Virus record (IMG/VR): IMGVR_UViG_3300042868_002920
Span: 1 to 20,042 of that record
DNA: 20,042 nucleotides
DNA from: a virus
Direction: 5' to 3' (one strand)
The first letter of the stretch is position 1. Each line of letters begins with the position of its first letter. The notes under the pieces were generated by a model that made no database searches, was not told the DNA's origin, and saw nothing but the letters and a program-made list of their open reading frames with translations. This document shows, piece after piece, positions 7,542 to 19,027 of the stretch. Made by a program: the position numbers and the translations under genes.

Positions 7542-7982
7542 ATGGCAATCTCTGGACCAGTAAACGGCACGCTGATAAGCATCTATAAAGATGTTAGCGG
7601 AACCTTGACCAAAATCGCAAACGCGACATCTCATTCAATCGACATTTCTAAAGATATGATCGACGTTACTAACAAAGACAGCGCAGGCGCAAAGGAGTTT
7701 ATCGCCGGCGAATATGGCTACACTTTGAACGTTGAAGGTATTTTTGAAGAAGATGCATCTGTGAGCACAAGCGGTTTGTCTTTTAAAGATCTTTTGACCG
7801 ATTTGTTAGCGGGTACTTCTGTTACAATTGTAATGACTACCAACAGCAGCGGAGATCAAAAATTAACAGGCGGCGCTTTCTTCAGCAGCTTGAGTTTGAG
7901 CGCACCTAACAATGACAAAGCAACCTTCACAGGAACTTTGCAAGGTACTGGCGCCTTGACCATTGGCACCGTATCGCCTTAA
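7542..7982 (+). CDS. Major tail (tube) protein
   Basis: This is the subunit of the tail tube, polymerised as stacked rings around the tape measure. The 146 residues are beta-rich with short turns, starting MAISGPVNGTLISIYKDVSG, with an ISKDMIDVTNKDSAGAKEF segment typical of TP901-1-like tail proteins and the ending FTGTLQGTGALTIGTVSP. There is no signal or membrane segment. Its place just after the gp10-like neck gene and just before the tail chaperone pair supports the call. Codon use is intermediate toward that of the capsid gene, as expected for an abundant protein. Confidence 0.87.
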   Translation: MAISGPVNGTLISIYKDVSGTLTKIANATSHSIDISKDMIDVTNKDSAGAKEFIAGEYGYTLNVEGIFEEDASVSTSGLSFKDLLTDLLAGTSVTIVMTTNSSGDQKLTGGAFFSSLSLSAPNNDKATFTGTLQGTGALTIGTVSP

Positions 7983-8006: not shown

Positions 8007-8333
8007 ATGAGCCACATTATCATTGGGGGTGTTCAGCACCCCCTTTTGTTTAACATGAACAGCCTGCGCAACGTTATGCAGTTGGCTGGAATGGAAAATT
8101 TCGCAGATCTAAACCTGCAAAAAGACCTTGCCAAATCGATGGACTTTGCACTAAGTTGCGCGTTCTATGGGATATTGGAAGGCTACGAAGCCGACGGCAA
8201 AAAAACGCCATATCCCACCATCCAAAAGTTGGGCGCATCGGTTAAAAGATTTACAGAGTTGAGCCCTGCATTGGATGAATTCACGCAGGCAGTTAGTGAT
8301 TTCTTTAGCACTGAAGAGCCAGAGGGAAAGTAA
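8007..8333 (+). CDS. Tail assembly chaperone, upstream frame (lambda gpG-like)
   Basis: This cytoplasmic chaperone coats the tape measure protein while the tube polymerises and is absent from the virion. The 108-residue product (SHIIIGGVQHPLLFNMNSLRNVMQLAGM...) has the usual short strand followed by helices. The C-terminus, EEPEGK, sits on a frameshift site so that part of the ribosomes continue into the next frame. I chose the ATG at 8007 over an upstream in-frame TTG at 7989, which lies inside the presumed promoter. Position between tube and tape-measure genes plus the frameshift element make the assignment strong despite low sequence conservation in this family. Confidence 0.82.
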   Translation: MSHIIIGGVQHPLLFNMNSLRNVMQLAGMENFADLNLQKDLAKSMDFALSCAFYGILEGYEADGKKTPYPTIQKLGASVKRFTELSPALDEFTQAVSDFFSTEEPEGK

Positions 8334-8366
8334 AAGCCAAGGGCGACGGCGCACCGCTAACTTGGC
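8324..8366 (+). promoter_or_regulatory. Programmed -1 ribosomal frameshift site with stem-loop
   Basis: GGGAAAG at 8324-8330 is read as GGA AAG in the zero frame, directly before the TAA stop at 8331-8333. It is the same heptamer as in the lambda G-T genes. Slipping by -1 gives GGG AAA and enters the downstream open frame. Five nt after it, GCCAAG (8336-8341) pairs perfectly with CTTGGC (8361-8366), with a small inner CGG/CCG stem, a well-placed stimulatory structure. Confidence 0.85.
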
Positions 8367-8674
8367 GCAAGATTGAGCGCATCAGTTACGGCGAATTGAA
8401 TCTAACTGAGCGAGAGTTTTGGAAATGCTCGCCACGATTTTGGCGTTTGAAATTGGAGGGGATGCGTGAGGCGCAGCAACAGCAGTACAGAAACCAATGG
8501 GAGATCACTCGCTGGGCAGTTGCTACAGGCATGGCGCCACATTTAAAAAAGCCAATTGAACCGAAAAGGCTGTTAACATTTCCATGGGAGGAACCTGAGT
8601 TTTTGTCTATTCACGAAGCGGTTAAACTATATTCGCATGTCTTTGATAAGTTAACCCCAGACGCCAAGGCATGA
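8330..8674 (+). CDS. Tail assembly chaperone, frameshift-extended C-terminal domain (gpT-like)
   Basis: This is the downstream part of a fusion made by -1 frameshifting at 8324-8330; the full fusion would be about 222 residues (108 plus 114). The frame is open from 8315, has no ATG before well inside the domain, and offers only a TTG at 8396, so independent translation is unlikely. The segment NLTEREFWKCSPRFWRLKLEGM, a basic Gln-rich helix, and a later KRLLTFPWEEP match the second-frame domain of siphovirus chaperones, which binds tail tube protein in lambda. Its stop overlaps the next start as ATGA. The frame change is supported by sequence; its efficiency is unknown. Confidence 0.8.
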   Translation, partial: VKAKGDGAPLTWRKIERISYGELNLTEREFWKCSPRFWRLKLEGMREAQQQQYRNQWEITRWAVATGMAPHLKKPIEPKRLLTFPWEEPEFLSIHEAVKLYSHVFDKLTPDAKA

Positions 8675-9165
8675 GCGCACCCATAAAAATAGTATATAAC
8701 ATTTTAAGCAATGCGTCAGACCTCACGGCGTTGGTTTCCACTCGCTTAAATCCTTTGCGGATTCCGCAAGAGTCTGCATTCCCTGCAATTGCTTATAATT
8801 TAGTCAGCGTAATTGCAAGCCCTACCAACACAAGCCACTCACGCACAGACTTTGCTCGTGTGCAAGTTAGTAGTTTTGGCACCACGTTTGCCGATGCGAT
8901 GGAGACAGCCGCACAAGTTAGAGCTGCGTTTGAAGCTGCTACCTTTCCAGATACTTTTAATGGGGTTTACTGCCAGGCGATTGAGTTCGATGGCGAAGTG
9001 CATTTGGTTGAGGATGAGGCGGGATTTGCGGGAATTTATCACGTTGCTCAGGACTTTATTATTAATTACATTTATGCCGCGCCAGTGCCATCTGGTGCTA
9101 GTTATTTGTTGCTCGAAGATGGCGCATATTTATTACAAGAAGATAGTTATAAAATAGAATTGTAA
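8671..9165 (+). CDS. Tail terminator / completion protein, DUF3168-like
   Basis: Proteins of the DUF3168 group (related to lambda gpU and HK97 gp10-neighbour proteins) cap the growing tail. The 164 residues show the usual order: an N-terminal helix (IKIVYNILSNASDLTALV), R-I-P with FPAIAYNLVS, a strand RTDFARVQVSSFG, and a helix DAMETAAQVRAAFEAAT. The C-terminus adds a repetitive YLLLEDGAYLLQEDSYKIEL, a beta-hairpin-like extension not needed for the core fold. The gene overlaps the chaperone stop as ATGA. In lambda and HK97 the equivalent gene lies before the tube gene; here it lies between chaperone and tape measure. The call is by pattern and is moderate. Confidence 0.72.
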   Translation: MSAPIKIVYNILSNASDLTALVSTRLNPLRIPQESAFPAIAYNLVSVIASPTNTSHSRTDFARVQVSSFGTTFADAMETAAQVRAAFEAATFPDTFNGVYCQAIEFDGEVHLVEDEAGFAGIYHVAQDFIINYIYAAPVPSGASYLLLEDGAYLLQEDSYKIEL

Positions 9166-9167
9166 GC

Positions 9168-10964
9168 ATGGCAAGGTCCTTAAATATAGTAATTGGCGCA
9201 AACATTGAAAAGCTCAGACAGGGCTTTAATGATGCGATATCAGTAATAAAAAAGGCGGGCGGCGAAATGTCTGCCGATGTGGCAAAGAGCGCAAAGAGCA
9301 TTGAGGAGAAGCTGGCAAGCATTGCAACCCGTAACCCAACGATGGGGACTGTTAGGCAGTTGACTCAGTTGGCTATGGAAGCGCGGGCATTGGGCCCAGA
9401 GTTTGCGGCTTCCGCTGATCAGTTTATAAAAGAAGCGGGTAGAATCAAAGATAGCATAGGCGATGCCAGGGCAGAGGTTGGGTATTTTGCAAGCGATACC
9501 CGACGCCTCGATGCGGTATTGGGTGGAGTGCAGGCAGTTGCCGGAGCCTTTGGAGCCGTTGAGGGGGCACTTGCATTGGCAGGTGTTGAGAATGAAGATC
9601 TACAGAAAACAATGGTAAAGCTGCAGGGCGCCATTGCTTTGGTGAATGGAGTTCAAGCCATACAAAACGCATTGCAAGCCGAGAGCGCTGTGCGTATTGG
9701 GATAACTACGGCAGCCACTAAACTTTATACATTAGTAACGGGAGGCGCAACAGGGGCGACGCTTGCCTTTAGAACAGCCTTAATGTCTATAGGTGTTGGC
9801 GTTGCAATTGCAGGGATTGGCGCATTGATTGCAAACTTTGATAAATTAAAGAACGCAATTTTTCCCGCTGATGCCGCGCTAAAAGGATTAAATACAACGC
9901 TCGATAAAACGATAGCCAAAAACGAACGCGATATAAAAGTAATGGAGGCAAAGGGCAATAAATTAGGCGCCTTTGCTTTACAAGAACAGAATTTAAATTT
10001 AACGCTACAAAAGGCTCGGGCAAACTTTGGCAAAAATAATAAAGAGAACTGGGGCAAAATAATTGACGATACTAAAACAGCGTTAACCGTATTAAAAATA
10101 CAGAGAGACAATTATAACGCAGCCGAGGCCGCCAAACAACAAGAGCACGAGGCCGAGATTTTAAAGCAAAATCAAGACGCCTACAATAAGCGTTTAGAAA
10201 ACTTTAGAAAGTACAAAGCACAAAGACAATTAGAGGCGGAAAAGGCTAGGAATGAATTGAAGGCAACAGAAATCGAAACCGTTGCCAGCGGACCACGCCA
10301 AGGAATCAAAACAATAGATCCTGCGCCTATTGATATTAAGGCACCGCAAAAACTTGAGCATACATTTACGCAGATTGATTATGCGATGCAAAACCAAATC
10401 GCAAAGCAGGAAGAGTATGAAGAGCGTTTTGCGAAATCAATGGAGGGAGTTAACCAGGCGTTTAATAGTTTAACTGCTGACGGACTCGAAGCGTTCGGGG
10501 TGTTGTTGGGCGATATTATGACGGGGCAAATTGGAAGCTTCCAAGATTTTGGCAAGAAATTACTGGGATCCGTTGCGGCATTCATGAAATCATTTGGGCA
10601 AGCATTGATTGCAACGGCCACAGCGTCGAAGGCTTTTAAGGAGTTATTGATTTCCAACCCTGTGCTCGCAGCTGCTGCGGGTGTTGCATTGGTTGCGGGT
10701 TCTGCGGTGATCACTAATATGCTGAACAAAGGCCCAGAGATGACAGCCTTCGCTGAGGGAGGTATTGTGAGCGGGCCTACATTGGGATTGGTTGGTGAAT
10801 ATCCAGGGGCGAGTAGTAACCCTGAAGTAATCGCACCACTTGACAAATTGAAGGGCATGCTAAACACAAACGAGCAAAGCGGCTACGTTGCAAGCACTAC
10901 AATACAAGGTCGCGATTTGGCAATTGTTTTGGAACGATATAACAAAGACAGAAATAGGGGATAA
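9168..10964 (+). CDS. Tail tape measure protein
   Basis: This protein fills the tube lumen and sets tail length. The 598 residues are almost entirely helical, with long charged coiled-coil parts (residues 235-360), Ala/Gly-rich hydrophobic segments near 122-142, 204-223 (ALMSIGVGVAIAGIGALIAN) and 498-518 (PVLAAAAGVALVAGSAVIT), and the C-terminal FAEGGIVSGPTLGLVGEYPG motif followed by PEVIAPLDKLKGML that is common to tape measures. It is short; at the roughly 1.5 angstrom per residue known for siphoviruses it implies a tail of about 90 nm. Its position after the chaperone pair is canonical, and the stop shares one base with the next start (TAATG). Confidence 0.92.
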   Translation: MARSLNIVIGANIEKLRQGFNDAISVIKKAGGEMSADVAKSAKSIEEKLASIATRNPTMGTVRQLTQLAMEARALGPEFAASADQFIKEAGRIKDSIGDARAEVGYFASDTRRLDAVLGGVQAVAGAFGAVEGALALAGVENEDLQKTMVKLQGAIALVNGVQAIQNALQAESAVRIGITTAATKLYTLVTGGATGATLAFRTALMSIGVGVAIAGIGALIANFDKLKNAIFPADAALKGLNTTLDKTIAKNERDIKVMEAKGNKLGAFALQEQNLNLTLQKARANFGKNNKENWGKIIDDTKTALTVLKIQRDNYNAAEAAKQQEHEAEILKQNQDAYNKRLENFRKYKAQRQLEAEKARNELKATEIETVASGPRQGIKTIDPAPIDIKAPQKLEHTFTQIDYAMQNQIAKQEEYEERFAKSMEGVNQAFNSLTADGLEAFGVLLGDIMTGQIGSFQDFGKKLLGSVAAFMKSFGQALIATATASKAFKELLISNPVLAAAAGVALVAGSAVITNMLNKGPEMTAFAEGGIVSGPTLGLVGEYPGASSNPEVIAPLDKLKGMLNTNEQSGYVASTTIQGRDLAIVLERYNKDRNRG

Positions 10965-14546: not shown

Positions 14547-15365
14547 ATGATACTTTCAACACACGGAATTTTGAGTTCAATTAGTGGGGCTGTGCCACTT
14601 CTTCTTGATATATACCCATCAGCGGCAGTGGCTTACTCGGTGCGTAAATTGAGAACTCTATACACAGGTAGTGCGATTCGTGTGCGTAGGTCAAGCGATA
14701 ACACCGAGCAAGATATTGGATTTACCGCATTGGGCAACCTTGACGAATCCGCACTGACTACTTTTTGTAGTGGTACAAATGGCTTTGTAACTACTTGGTA
14801 TGACCAAAGCGGAAATGGTGTTAATTTTACACAAACAACCGCAGGAAGTCAGCCACAAATCGTAAGTAGTGGAACGATATTGACACAAAGCGGTAAACCG
14901 TCAATGTCGTTTAATGGAAGTACACACAATTTTGATTGTACATCTACTACAATATCTGTACTTGATTCTTCTTTATTTATTACATACAAACAAAATGCAG
15001 CAGCACAAGCAAATCAATTATCATTACAAAACGGAAGTTCATATCCTTTTTTGAATTATTCAGGTACAATTTATTACGCAAGCACTTTGACAAGTGTTGG
15101 GACTTCCGCTTTGGGTGACGGAAATTTTGGATTGGTTACTATTAATTTACAAGTAGGAACAACACAAACTTTCTACAAAAACAATACTTTAATTTTTACA
15201 AAAGCCACACCGACAGCAGGAGCGCAAACATTTAACAAATTATGCGGGTCTCCATTTGGGCCGCCAACGCCACAAAATCATAGCGAAATTATTGCATATC
15301 CTACAAATCAAATCGCAAATAGAAACGCAATTAATACTAATATAATCACTTATTATGGTTTGTAA
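14547..15365 (+). CDS. Lectin-like receptor-binding protein (ArabFuran-catal / ConA-like domain)
   Basis: This is probably the sugar-binding adhesin at the tail tip. Residues 28-100 carry the strong signature of a phage module usually assigned to the alpha-L-arabinofuranosidase B catalytic family: VAYSVRKLRTLYTG, AIRVRRSSDNTEQDIGFT, and NGFVTTWYDQSGNGVNFTQTT. The rest is beta-rich (KPSMSFNGSTHNFDC, FGLVTINLQVGTTQTFYKNN), as in concanavalin-A-like jelly rolls. The 272-residue protein has no signal peptide. From about 14930 the DNA becomes clearly A/T-richer than the tail genes, hinting at exchange. Family resemblance is firm; enzyme activity is not implied, since these phage copies are more plausibly lectins, and catalytic residues were not checked. 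Confidence 0.78.
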   Translation: MILSTHGILSSISGAVPLLLDIYPSAAVAYSVRKLRTLYTGSAIRVRRSSDNTEQDIGFTALGNLDESALTTFCSGTNGFVTTWYDQSGNGVNFTQTTAGSQPQIVSSGTILTQSGKPSMSFNGSTHNFDCTSTTISVLDSSLFITYKQNAAAQANQLSLQNGSSYPFLNYSGTIYYASTLTSVGTSALGDGNFGLVTINLQVGTTQTFYKNNTLIFTKATPTAGAQTFNKLCGSPFGPPTPQNHSEIIAYPTNQIANRNAINTNIITYYGL

Positions 15366-16888: not shown

Positions 16889-17096
16889 TTACTATCTGCT
16901 GAAGGGCGCAGAAGCCCGCGAGAATCTGGCGTTGTGTATTGAGTACCGAAAGGTGGATGCGGAGGTTATTGCGCAACAGGATAAGATCCAGGCGAAGTTA
17001 TTAGACGAATTGCAGAAGCGTGATATCAAATATAAGCGCCTCCGCCGCACAACTTATGCAATTGCAGCCGTCTTTTTAGTAACTTTGATCTTATGA
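16791..17096 (+). CDS. Exported or two-span protein overlapping the spanin-like gene
   Basis: The 101-residue protein begins inside the previous gene (98-nt overlap, different frame). Residues 4-21 (SILLLMVILLAAPHCALSQC) look like a signal peptide; LSQC ends like a lipobox but has Gln at -1, so lipidation is doubtful. A charged coiled-coil follows (AEVIAQQDKIQAKLLDELQKRD), then the basic YKRLRRT and a second hydrophobic segment at 86-101 (YAIAAVFLVTLIL). A C-terminal anchor is not found in classical outer-membrane spanins, so it may be a different kind of lysis helper. Its stop overlaps the endolysin start as ATGA. Confidence 0.65.
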   Translation: MIRSILLLMVILLAAPHCALSQCTDSSTVSASNYYLLKGAEARENLALCIEYRKVDAEVIAQQDKIQAKLLDELQKRDIKYKRLRRTTYAIAAVFLVTLIL

Positions 17097-17656
17097 ATAT
17101 AGCAGTATTAAAGGCCACGATGGCCGCCAAAAAATATGCCTTCTTTGAAGATGGCGAGTATAACCTAAACATCGTGGGGATCCGTAATAGTTCCACAGGC
17201 AACAAAGTTACCAACGCATTCGACGATAAGCTTGTATGCGCCTACAAAATACAAAACACTTGGGTAGTAAAAGAATGGGCTGCAACTACGGATAACGGCG
17301 GTGGCACTGCTCGCTTGGTTGCAAATCAGTACAGAGGTAGCCACGCTATTGGATTGCACCAGGGAAAGTATGAGGCGCTCAAACAATGCGGCCCTGTAAC
17401 TGTGTACCGGGATTACACCAAAGACGGAATTTATCAAACAGATAAGACTGAAACAGGCGTTTTTGGTATTAACATTCACAAGGCTGGAGTTGACAGTGCC
17501 CGGGTGGATGACTGGAGCCACGGCTGCCAAGTGTTCAAACGCGTTGCAGATTTCAACGAGTTTATGGCACTCGCAAAAAAAGCGGCCACCATTCACGGCA
17601 ACCGCTTCACATATACTTTGCTTGAATCTAAGGATTTGGTTCAGCCGTTGGGTTAA
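17093..17656 (+). CDS. Endolysin-type protein with L,D-transpeptidase-like catalytic motif
   Basis: The 187-residue protein carries NLNIVGIRNSSTGNKVTNAFDD, a central GSHAIGLHQGKYEALKQCGPVTVYRD segment, and the catalytic block GINIHKAG (H129) followed by WSHGCQVF (S142, H143, G144, C145). H...SHGC is the YkuD / L,D-transpeptidase active-site pattern. In phages of Bacteroidota such proteins sit at the end of the lysis cassette and are thought to act on peptidoglycan. There is no signal peptide, so the holin would have to release it. The start ATG overlaps the previous stop; M10 is an alternative. The 3' end overlaps the opposing recT gene by 29 bp. Whether it cleaves or transfers crosslinks is unknown. 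Confidence 0.75.
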   Translation: MNIAVLKATMAAKKYAFFEDGEYNLNIVGIRNSSTGNKVTNAFDDKLVCAYKIQNTWVVKEWAATTDNGGGTARLVANQYRGSHAIGLHQGKYEALKQCGPVTVYRDYTKDGIYQTDKTETGVFGINIHKAGVDSARVDDWSHGCQVFKRVADFNEFMALAKKAATIHGNRFTYTLLESKDLVQPLG

Positions 17657-18224
17657 TTAGTTTAGCGTTGATCGCTGCAACCCCTGCGGGCTCTTCGTGT
17701 TGGATATCTACCACCTCCTCAACGCTGTGCATTCCCATCGTAATCTCGGGGGCGTAGAGACGGCCAAAGAAAGCGGCGGCCCTGTAGCGCATCATTAGCT
17801 CGGGCATTGTTTTCCATTTGCTGCCTGCCTTGCTTACCCACCCTTCGGCGTTTGCCATTGCCATCGTAACGGCGGGGCCTTCTACGGTCTCGCCTGTTGC
17901 CTTTTCGGTGGCTACTGCCTTAATCCCTTTGTCAAGATCACCAACAAAGCGCAGGGCGGTGAACTTTCCGCAGCCGTTTATTGCAGCGATCACGAATGTA
18001 CTGGACCAACTCGGCCGCCCGTGAATGATATGCAGGTTTTGCATAACCATAAGCGGCGAGGCTCCAATGCGGTTTGCAATTTCCAAGGCTACCAAAGTAT
18101 TGGCAACATTGCCTTTGTATTGTTGTGGCACCAAGTCTGAAGCGCTCAGGGCTTTTGCTTGGCGTTGGGCCAACTCGAAGCTGCTGAGTGGCGCGGGGTT
18201 TGTTTCTGTTATTTCTGTGCTCAT
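17628..18224 (-). CDS. recT: RecT-like single-strand annealing protein
   Basis: This recombinase coats single-stranded DNA made by the partner exonuclease and anneals it to a homologous strand. The 198 residues show the RecT pattern: an N-terminal FELAQRQAKALSASDLVPQQYKGN, an ANRIGASPLMVMQNLHIIHGRPSW core, and PELMMRYRAAAFFGRLYAPE at residues 141-160 followed by GMHSVEEVVD. It is shorter than E. coli RecT (269 residues). The start ATG overlaps the exonuclease stop as ATGA, so the two are co-translated. The family call is strong. The gene converges with the endolysin gene, and no terminator is visible between them. Confidence 0.9.
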   Translation of the reverse strand: MSTEITETNPAPLSSFELAQRQAKALSASDLVPQQYKGNVANTLVALEIANRIGASPLMVMQNLHIIHGRPSWSSTFVIAAINGCGKFTALRFVGDLDKGIKAVATEKATGETVEGPAVTMAMANAEGWVSKAGSKWKTMPELMMRYRAAAFFGRLYAPEITMGMHSVEEVVDIQHEEPAGVAAINAKLINPTAEPNP

Positions 18225-18985
18225 AAAATTACCTTAGTTACTATTTCGCTATATCCGTGCCATATGTTCGACTTCTTACAAAAGCCGTAGGTCATCAGAT
18301 TCTTTTTGTATTTCTGGCGCGCTTCCTTTAGATCCTCGTTGCCGATAAAATACCAGCCAACTAAATAGGGAGGGTGCTTTTCGACAGCCACAAAAAAGAA
18401 ACCATTGCACGGCTTTCCTGTGGCTTCCTCGAGCCCGTCGGAGTAAAATGCGGCCTGCACATCGTATCGGTACTTTTTAACGCTCTGAGCGAATCCTCTG
18501 GGGCTTGCGTCCTCTGTTGTTTTTAGATCAATAATAACGTTGTCAGGAGTCAACCAATCGGGGCGAGCCTTGCAATCAATTTCCGTCTCTTCATCATTCC
18601 AGTAAATGGGTTGCTCAGCAATCCCGTCCTTAAGTAGATACTGCGCCGTCCGATGACCGCGGACGCTTTCCATTATCCTCTCAACCATTGTGGCGCTTTC
18701 TGCATCCAATGGAATGAGGCCCTTAGAATGCTCGAGAAAATTCGCCCAGGTTTCTTTGCCTTCTTTGGTGCGTCGGTCGCAATGAGGGGCAACAGCATAG
18801 CGTTTGCCGAACTCAGCGGGTTCAAACACTGCACAATGAGCAGCGGAGCCAATGATTAGCGCAGGGGTTTCTTTTTGCGGTAAGGCGTTGGGGTTTAGAT
18901 AGCGCTCGTAATAAAGTGCTGGGGCGCGATTAATTAGGTCGAGGCCGCTCTTTGAGACGCGGCTAATGTCTGTGTGGTACTGCAT
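18221..18985 (-). CDS. RecE-like PD-(D/E)XK exonuclease (DUF3799 family)
   Basis: This nuclease makes single-stranded tails for RecT. With the start at M(18985) it has 254 residues: SRVSKSGLDLINRAPALYYERY at the N-terminus, GSAAHCAVFEP with H50, E124 in AEQPIYW, D143 in KARPDWL, and the catalytic D153-L-K155 in VIIDLKTT, then YRYDVQAAFY with a Gln typical of motif IV. This is the C-terminal nuclease unit of RecE alone. An in-frame ATG 14 codons upstream exists at 19027, but the -7 box TAAATTTG lies between the two, which favours 18985. It is the first gene of a two-gene minus-strand operon with recT. Confidence 0.88.
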   Translation of the reverse strand: MQYHTDISRVSKSGLDLINRAPALYYERYLNPNALPQKETPALIIGSAAHCAVFEPAEFGKRYAVAPHCDRRTKEGKETWANFLEHSKGLIPLDAESATMVERIMESVRGHRTAQYLLKDGIAEQPIYWNDEETEIDCKARPDWLTPDNVIIDLKTTEDASPRGFAQSVKKYRYDVQAAFYSDGLEEATGKPCNGFFFVAVEKHPPYLVGWYFIGNEDLKEARQKYKKNLMTYGFCKKSNIWHGYSEIVTKVIL

Positions 18986-18989
18986 AACA

Positions 18990-19021
18990 TTTGCAAATTT
19001 ATCGCTTTTTTTGTAAATTTG
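18990..19021 (+). promoter_or_regulatory. Promoter of the HTH gene
   Basis: TTTG at 18990-18993 and TAAATTTG at 19014-19021 are separated by 20 nt, matching the complete Bacteroidota promoter consensus (TTTG, 19-21 nt, TAnnTTTG). The -7 box ends 6 nt before the ATG at 19028, so the message would have almost no leader. This is the best promoter match in the window. Confidence 0.68.
18994..19001 (-). promoter_or_regulatory. -7 box of the exonuclease-recT operon
   Basis: Read on the minus strand this is TAAATTTG, an exact -7 consensus match ending 8 nt before the ATG at 18985. No clear -33 TTTG lies upstream of it. Together with the plus-strand -7 box it forms an inverted repeat, CAAATTTA, 12 nt, TAAATTTG, across the divergent control region. 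One protein could cover both promoters. Confidence 0.5.
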
Positions 19022-19027
19022 TAGCAT

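Follow-up and report, generated by a model that had tools for sequence, protein, structure and literature searches.

A lambda-type −1 frameshift very probably joins two putative tail chaperone frames in a group of uncultivated phages

Programmed −1 frameshifting in the tail assembly genes of phage lambda is one of the closest known systems to the locus described here (PMC5009743, PMC7618472). In lambda, gpG and gpGT are produced at a ratio of about 30:1 via −1 shifting; G binds the tape measure protein and T binds the tube protein (PMC5009743). In E. coli, the slip sites G_GGA_AAG and C_CCA_AAG are highly prone to shifting (PMC5009743), and the chaperone genes of HK97-like phages show 6-7% shifting in this organism (PMC3711429). 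In Lactococcus phage TP901-1, the heptamer GGGAAAG is located at the 3' end of gpG in the gpG/gpT pair and has been manipulated experimentally (PMC4493119). Here, we analyse a 20,042-base virus record of IMG/VR (IMGVR_UViG_3300042868_002920, positions 1-20,042; the window), in which the same heptamer very probably serves a lambda-type G/GT programmed −1 frameshift that joins two overlapping putative tail chaperone frames, referred to as G and T. TP901-1 is likened to it by published description, its phage and host being unrelated.

The elements of the site are as follows:

8007-8333, plus strand: gene G, zero-frame putative tail assembly chaperone of 108 amino acids, an open reading frame (ORF) from the ATG at 8007 to the TAA at 8333, ending EEPEGK-stop
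8315-8674: the open −1 frame, overlapping G by 19 nucleotides
8324-8330, plus strand: slippery heptamer GGGAAAG (G_GGA_AAG), in phase and invariant in 105 distinct relatives
8330-8674, plus strand: −1-frame T region, with 114 codons downstream of the slip
8331-8333, plus strand: TAA stop of G, abutting the heptamer, invariant in relatives and the default stop in these phages
8396-8398, plus strand: TTG, rival start codon for T, not conserved

The original prediction had placed the heptamer at 8324, in phase, in a tail-gene context and with a shift in the −1 direction, and all of these coordinates were verified in the sequence. The site reads G GGA AAG TAA in the G frame, and a −1 slip leads into the frame that is open to 8674, with a predicted GT fusion of 222 amino acids and the junction EEPEGK/VKAKGD. 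The heptamer alone occurs at chance level (two copies in the window versus 2.31 expected), and the chance of an in-phase XXX(A/T)3N motif within the 19-nucleotide overlap is about 1.7%. In our reading of the aligned sequences, it is comparative conservation, and not the bare heptamer or the hairpin downstream, that decides the case for frameshifting.

Relatives were gathered by three IMG/VR scans with G or T and one with an alignment of G, which yielded 105 distinct G-T nucleotide sequences (54 of them non-redundant), whose G is roughly 70-99% identical to that of the window. The junction GAG GGA AAG TAA is invariant and GAGGGAAAGTAA is unchanged in all 105, and the lengths of G (108 codons) and T (116 codons counted from GGG) are likewise constant in 105 of 105. 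Relatives that retain both frames but have lost the heptamer would, according to the original prediction, speak against it; their number was 0 of 105. Across the 54 non-redundant sequences, the site's codons for glutamate, glycine and lysine show no synonymous change, while the same kinds of codon vary elsewhere. Synonymous diversity is zero over 8324-8350, the lowest value in both genes, and this stretch spans the slip site, the stop, the spacer, the 5' stem arm and little more; permutation gave P ~1e-4 for the T codons at 8330-8347 and P = 0.014 for the G codons at 8322-8330. By contrast, the tail tube and terminator genes vary freely in their last codons. A second GGGAAAG of the window (17362-17368, in phase in the ORF at 17093-17656) served as a control: only 21 of the 40 relatives compared (protein identity 83-99%) retain it, the others using different Gly and Lys codons, and the −1 frame there shuts after three codons. 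Since this control site drifts while the site at 8324 stays fixed, chance was rejected as an explanation of the latter. In two relatives (L303 and L306), the T frame has a TGA directly before GGG, which reduces the whole overlap to GGGAAAGTAA, 10 nucleotides; since this TGA closes the −1 frame before the heptamer, the −1 change must fall within that stretch.

A different explanation would be that T is a separate gene, started at the TTG at 8396, at a near-cognate codon or by reinitiation after the G stop, and that the heptamer is coincidental. ATG, GTG and TTG codons are indeed present further inside T: the first TTG of the frame is that at 8396 and its first in-frame ATG lies at 8462, so that the predicted lack of an ATG holds near the start of the frame but not beyond. 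Moreover, the absence of a Shine-Dalgarno motif before the TTG is not decisive, since such motifs are nearly absent phage-wide. However, position 8396 is occupied by TTG in only 21 of the 54 non-redundant relatives and by TTA, CTT, CTC, CTA or ATG in the remaining 33, and the first in-frame ATG, GTG or TTG of T falls into seven different combinations of codon and position among the 105 relatives. The ratio of nonsynonymous to synonymous substitution rates (dN/dS) for the stretch between heptamer and TTG (8333-8395) is 0.126 in the T frame and 1.6 and 2.2 in the other two frames, compared to 0.164 for the remainder of T and 0.192 for G. As dN/dS is low in the T frame only, this stretch must be translated in the T frame. 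The expectation that the second frame has no conserved start of its own was thus borne out, T being coding right up to the slip site, and an independent start at TTG 8396 was ruled out by its non-conservation together with the T-frame coding upstream of it. The heptamer is furthermore frozen although synonymous alternatives exist, and we consider a separately started T highly improbable. The site, its phase, the selective constraint on it and T-frame coding right up to it are read directly from the sequences.

Transcriptional slippage, in which the polymerase rather than the ribosome would shift on GGGAAA, can also join frames, mostly at long runs of A or T (PMC3711429); here, the two runs are no longer than three bases each (three G, three A), and what is invariant is the exact ribosomal heptamer in codon phase, which makes this origin of the shift extremely improbable. 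A sub-case of the lambda-type frameshift, and compatible with it, is a termination-sensing variant in which the shift occurs mainly post-translocation with TAA in the A site, so that the level of GT is set by release factor supply. The original prediction had singled out the stop touching the heptamer as notable, and this arrangement is indeed invariant in the relatives; however, it has precedents in Bacillus phage Silence and in Rous sarcoma and barley yellow dwarf viruses (PMC4373837). TAA abuts the heptamer in 105 of 105 relatives, as does TAG in Silence, and bacterial release factors altered frameshifting in a codon-specific manner when a stop stood there (PMC4373837). The identity of the stop is uninformative, though: as this phage group generally uses TAA as its stop, the presence of TAA is no sign of release factor dependence. 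Furthermore, Geobacillus phage GBK2 and Bacuni_F1 carry one sense codon between heptamer and stop, and an intercodon stop lowered frameshifting in the tested element of human immunodeficiency virus 1 (PMC4373837). We regard the termination-sensing variant as unlikely, and it is rather doubtful that, owing to the fixed stop, the level of GT follows release factor supply or the speed of termination and so couples the chaperone ratio to the termination capacity of the host.

A possible stimulator of the slip lies downstream of the heptamer:

8336-8341, plus strand: 5' arm of the putative stimulatory stem, GCCAAG, without synonymous change in relatives
8361-8366, plus strand: 3' arm of the stem, CTTGGC, with one variant (8366 C to G) that breaks the closing pair
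8348-8351/8355-8358, plus strand: possible inner helix of 4 base pairs in the loop, tentative, kept by G-U/A-U and G-C/G-U changes

The stem is perfect over 6 base pairs, encloses a loop of 19 nucleotides and begins 5 nucleotides after the heptamer, as had been predicted; its support is weaker than the prediction implied, given its ordinary stability and the lack of covariation. Pairing is kept in 99% of cells across the relatives and the arms are free of synonymous change. Predicted folds of the region differ between variants, and the inner helix (8348-8358) is absent from the minimum-energy fold of most of them. Compared with synonymous recodings of T, the hairpin was not significant (P = 0.14), and RNA stability was set aside as evidence for the frameshift. 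A search of Rfam gave no match. A pseudoknot candidate of only 4 base pairs, between the loop sequence CGCT (8355-8358) and AGCG (8376-8379), was considered by eye. The hairpin is conserved, and a role in the slip is plausible.

T matches phrog_16333 (E 2.8e-10), a family of unknown function; its match to the tail assembly chaperone family Phage_TAC_6 of Pfam (PF09550) stayed below the cut-off (E 0.003). A tblastn search turned up weak T relatives among phages of Cellulophaga, Bacteroides, Bacillus and Geobacillus. Profile comparison shows T to be homologous to the T portion of the joined chaperone of Bacillus phage Silence (KT001912, CPT_Silence16/17, tape measure chaperones; hhalign 95.8%, E 7.8e-9). 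In Silence, as in the window, the heptamer abuts the stop (C CCA AAG TAG), and a two-piece joined coding sequence is annotated; in contrast to the window, with its GGGAAAG and TAA, Silence uses CCCAAAG and TAG, its T adjoins the tape measure gene, and the G proteins are not detectably similar. GBK2 has CCCAAAC 3 nucleotides (one sense codon) before the stop, and Bacuni_F1 has AAAAAAA one codon before it. In Cellulophaga phage phi39:1 (L309, KC821626; 3430-3812), the T-like frame is open at +1 (or −2) relative to the G-like gene; the junction lies at an A-rich stretch (AAAAAAAAGAAGG TAG) without an annotated fusion, and the direction is unlike that in the window. The AlphaFold model of G, a low-confidence model, gave as its best match the BFVD entry 'Tail assembly chaperone protein' (E 3.5e-4, probability 1.00, template modelling score 0.62). 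A PDB fold search with this model found nothing, a search of phage records with G gave no match, and profile comparison of G with the G proteins of Silence and Bacuni_F1 gave no signal.

Several of the results weigh against a lambda-type frameshift. G is without a match in Pfam or PHROG, and its AlphaFold model has a confidence (pLDDT) of 58. The stability of the hairpin is ordinary (z −0.69 and −0.83), and covariation or compensatory changes in the stem were sought among the relatives and none were found. In addition, an abutting stop is expected to lower frameshifting through competition by release factors (PMC4373837).

For the slip itself and its rate, the role of the hairpin and the functions of the proteins, we infer the following scheme. 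The majority of ribosomes would read G and stop at the TAA at 8331, yielding the 108-amino acid chaperone. A minority would pause at the site, where the tRNAs on GGA and AAG would move back by one base and pair anew with GGG and AAA; reading would then continue with GTA AAA GCC in the T frame and yield the 222-amino acid GT fusion. The slip is probably stimulated by the downstream hairpin, and release factor competition at the stop codon that follows may set its rate. Because the phage genes are almost devoid of Shine-Dalgarno motifs, a stimulator of this kind upstream of the site, such as that of dnaX, is not to be expected. By analogy with lambda, surplus G would coat the tape measure protein, and GT would recruit the tail tube subunit through its T domain.

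The window encodes head and tail proteins of a tailed phage, including TerL, portal, prohead protease, capsid and an HK97-gp10-like protein, and the two frames are flanked by the following genes:

7542-7982: tail tube (Pfam Phage_tail_2, PF06199)
8671-9165: tail-terminator-like gene (PF11367, phrog_347)
9168-10964: putative tape measure, a 598-amino acid ORF assigned by position and length

G and T thus sit between the tube and tape measure genes, with the terminator-like gene intervening after T. Compared to lambda, the window differs in this intervening gene, in the stop that directly abuts the heptamer and in a G protein for which no similarity in sequence to known families was detected. 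T adjoins the tape measure gene in Silence, GBK2, phi39:1 and Bacuni_F1, whereas in the window the terminator-like gene separates it from the putative tape measure gene. Further downstream, a protein of the probable tail-fibre region (14547-15365) carries an arabinofuranosidase-like domain (PF09206, E 6e-12). The ORF at 17093-17656, which encodes 187 amino acids, has at least 595 matching IMG/VR stretches and no Pfam match; it is perhaps a lysis or peptidoglycan enzyme, a guess from position and sequence. On the minus strand, 17628-19027 encodes a DUF3799 PD-(D/E)XK protein and, after it, a RecT-like ORF (RecT by eye, no Pfam match), likely a recombination pair convergent to the structural genes. 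Shine-Dalgarno-like motifs are almost absent before the gene starts of the window, which fits a Bacteroidota host; two contig scans of host genomes for relatives found none.

Taken together, the window's case is a fresh example of a well-known mechanism, with unusually clean sequence evidence. In a large group of uncultivated phages without Shine-Dalgarno motifs (a search with G alone returned more than 230 matching stretches), it documents a very probable frameshift of the lambda G/GT type that uses the identical heptamer, and natural variation within the group narrows the slip to 10 nucleotides. In these genomes, gene callers will split or truncate T.
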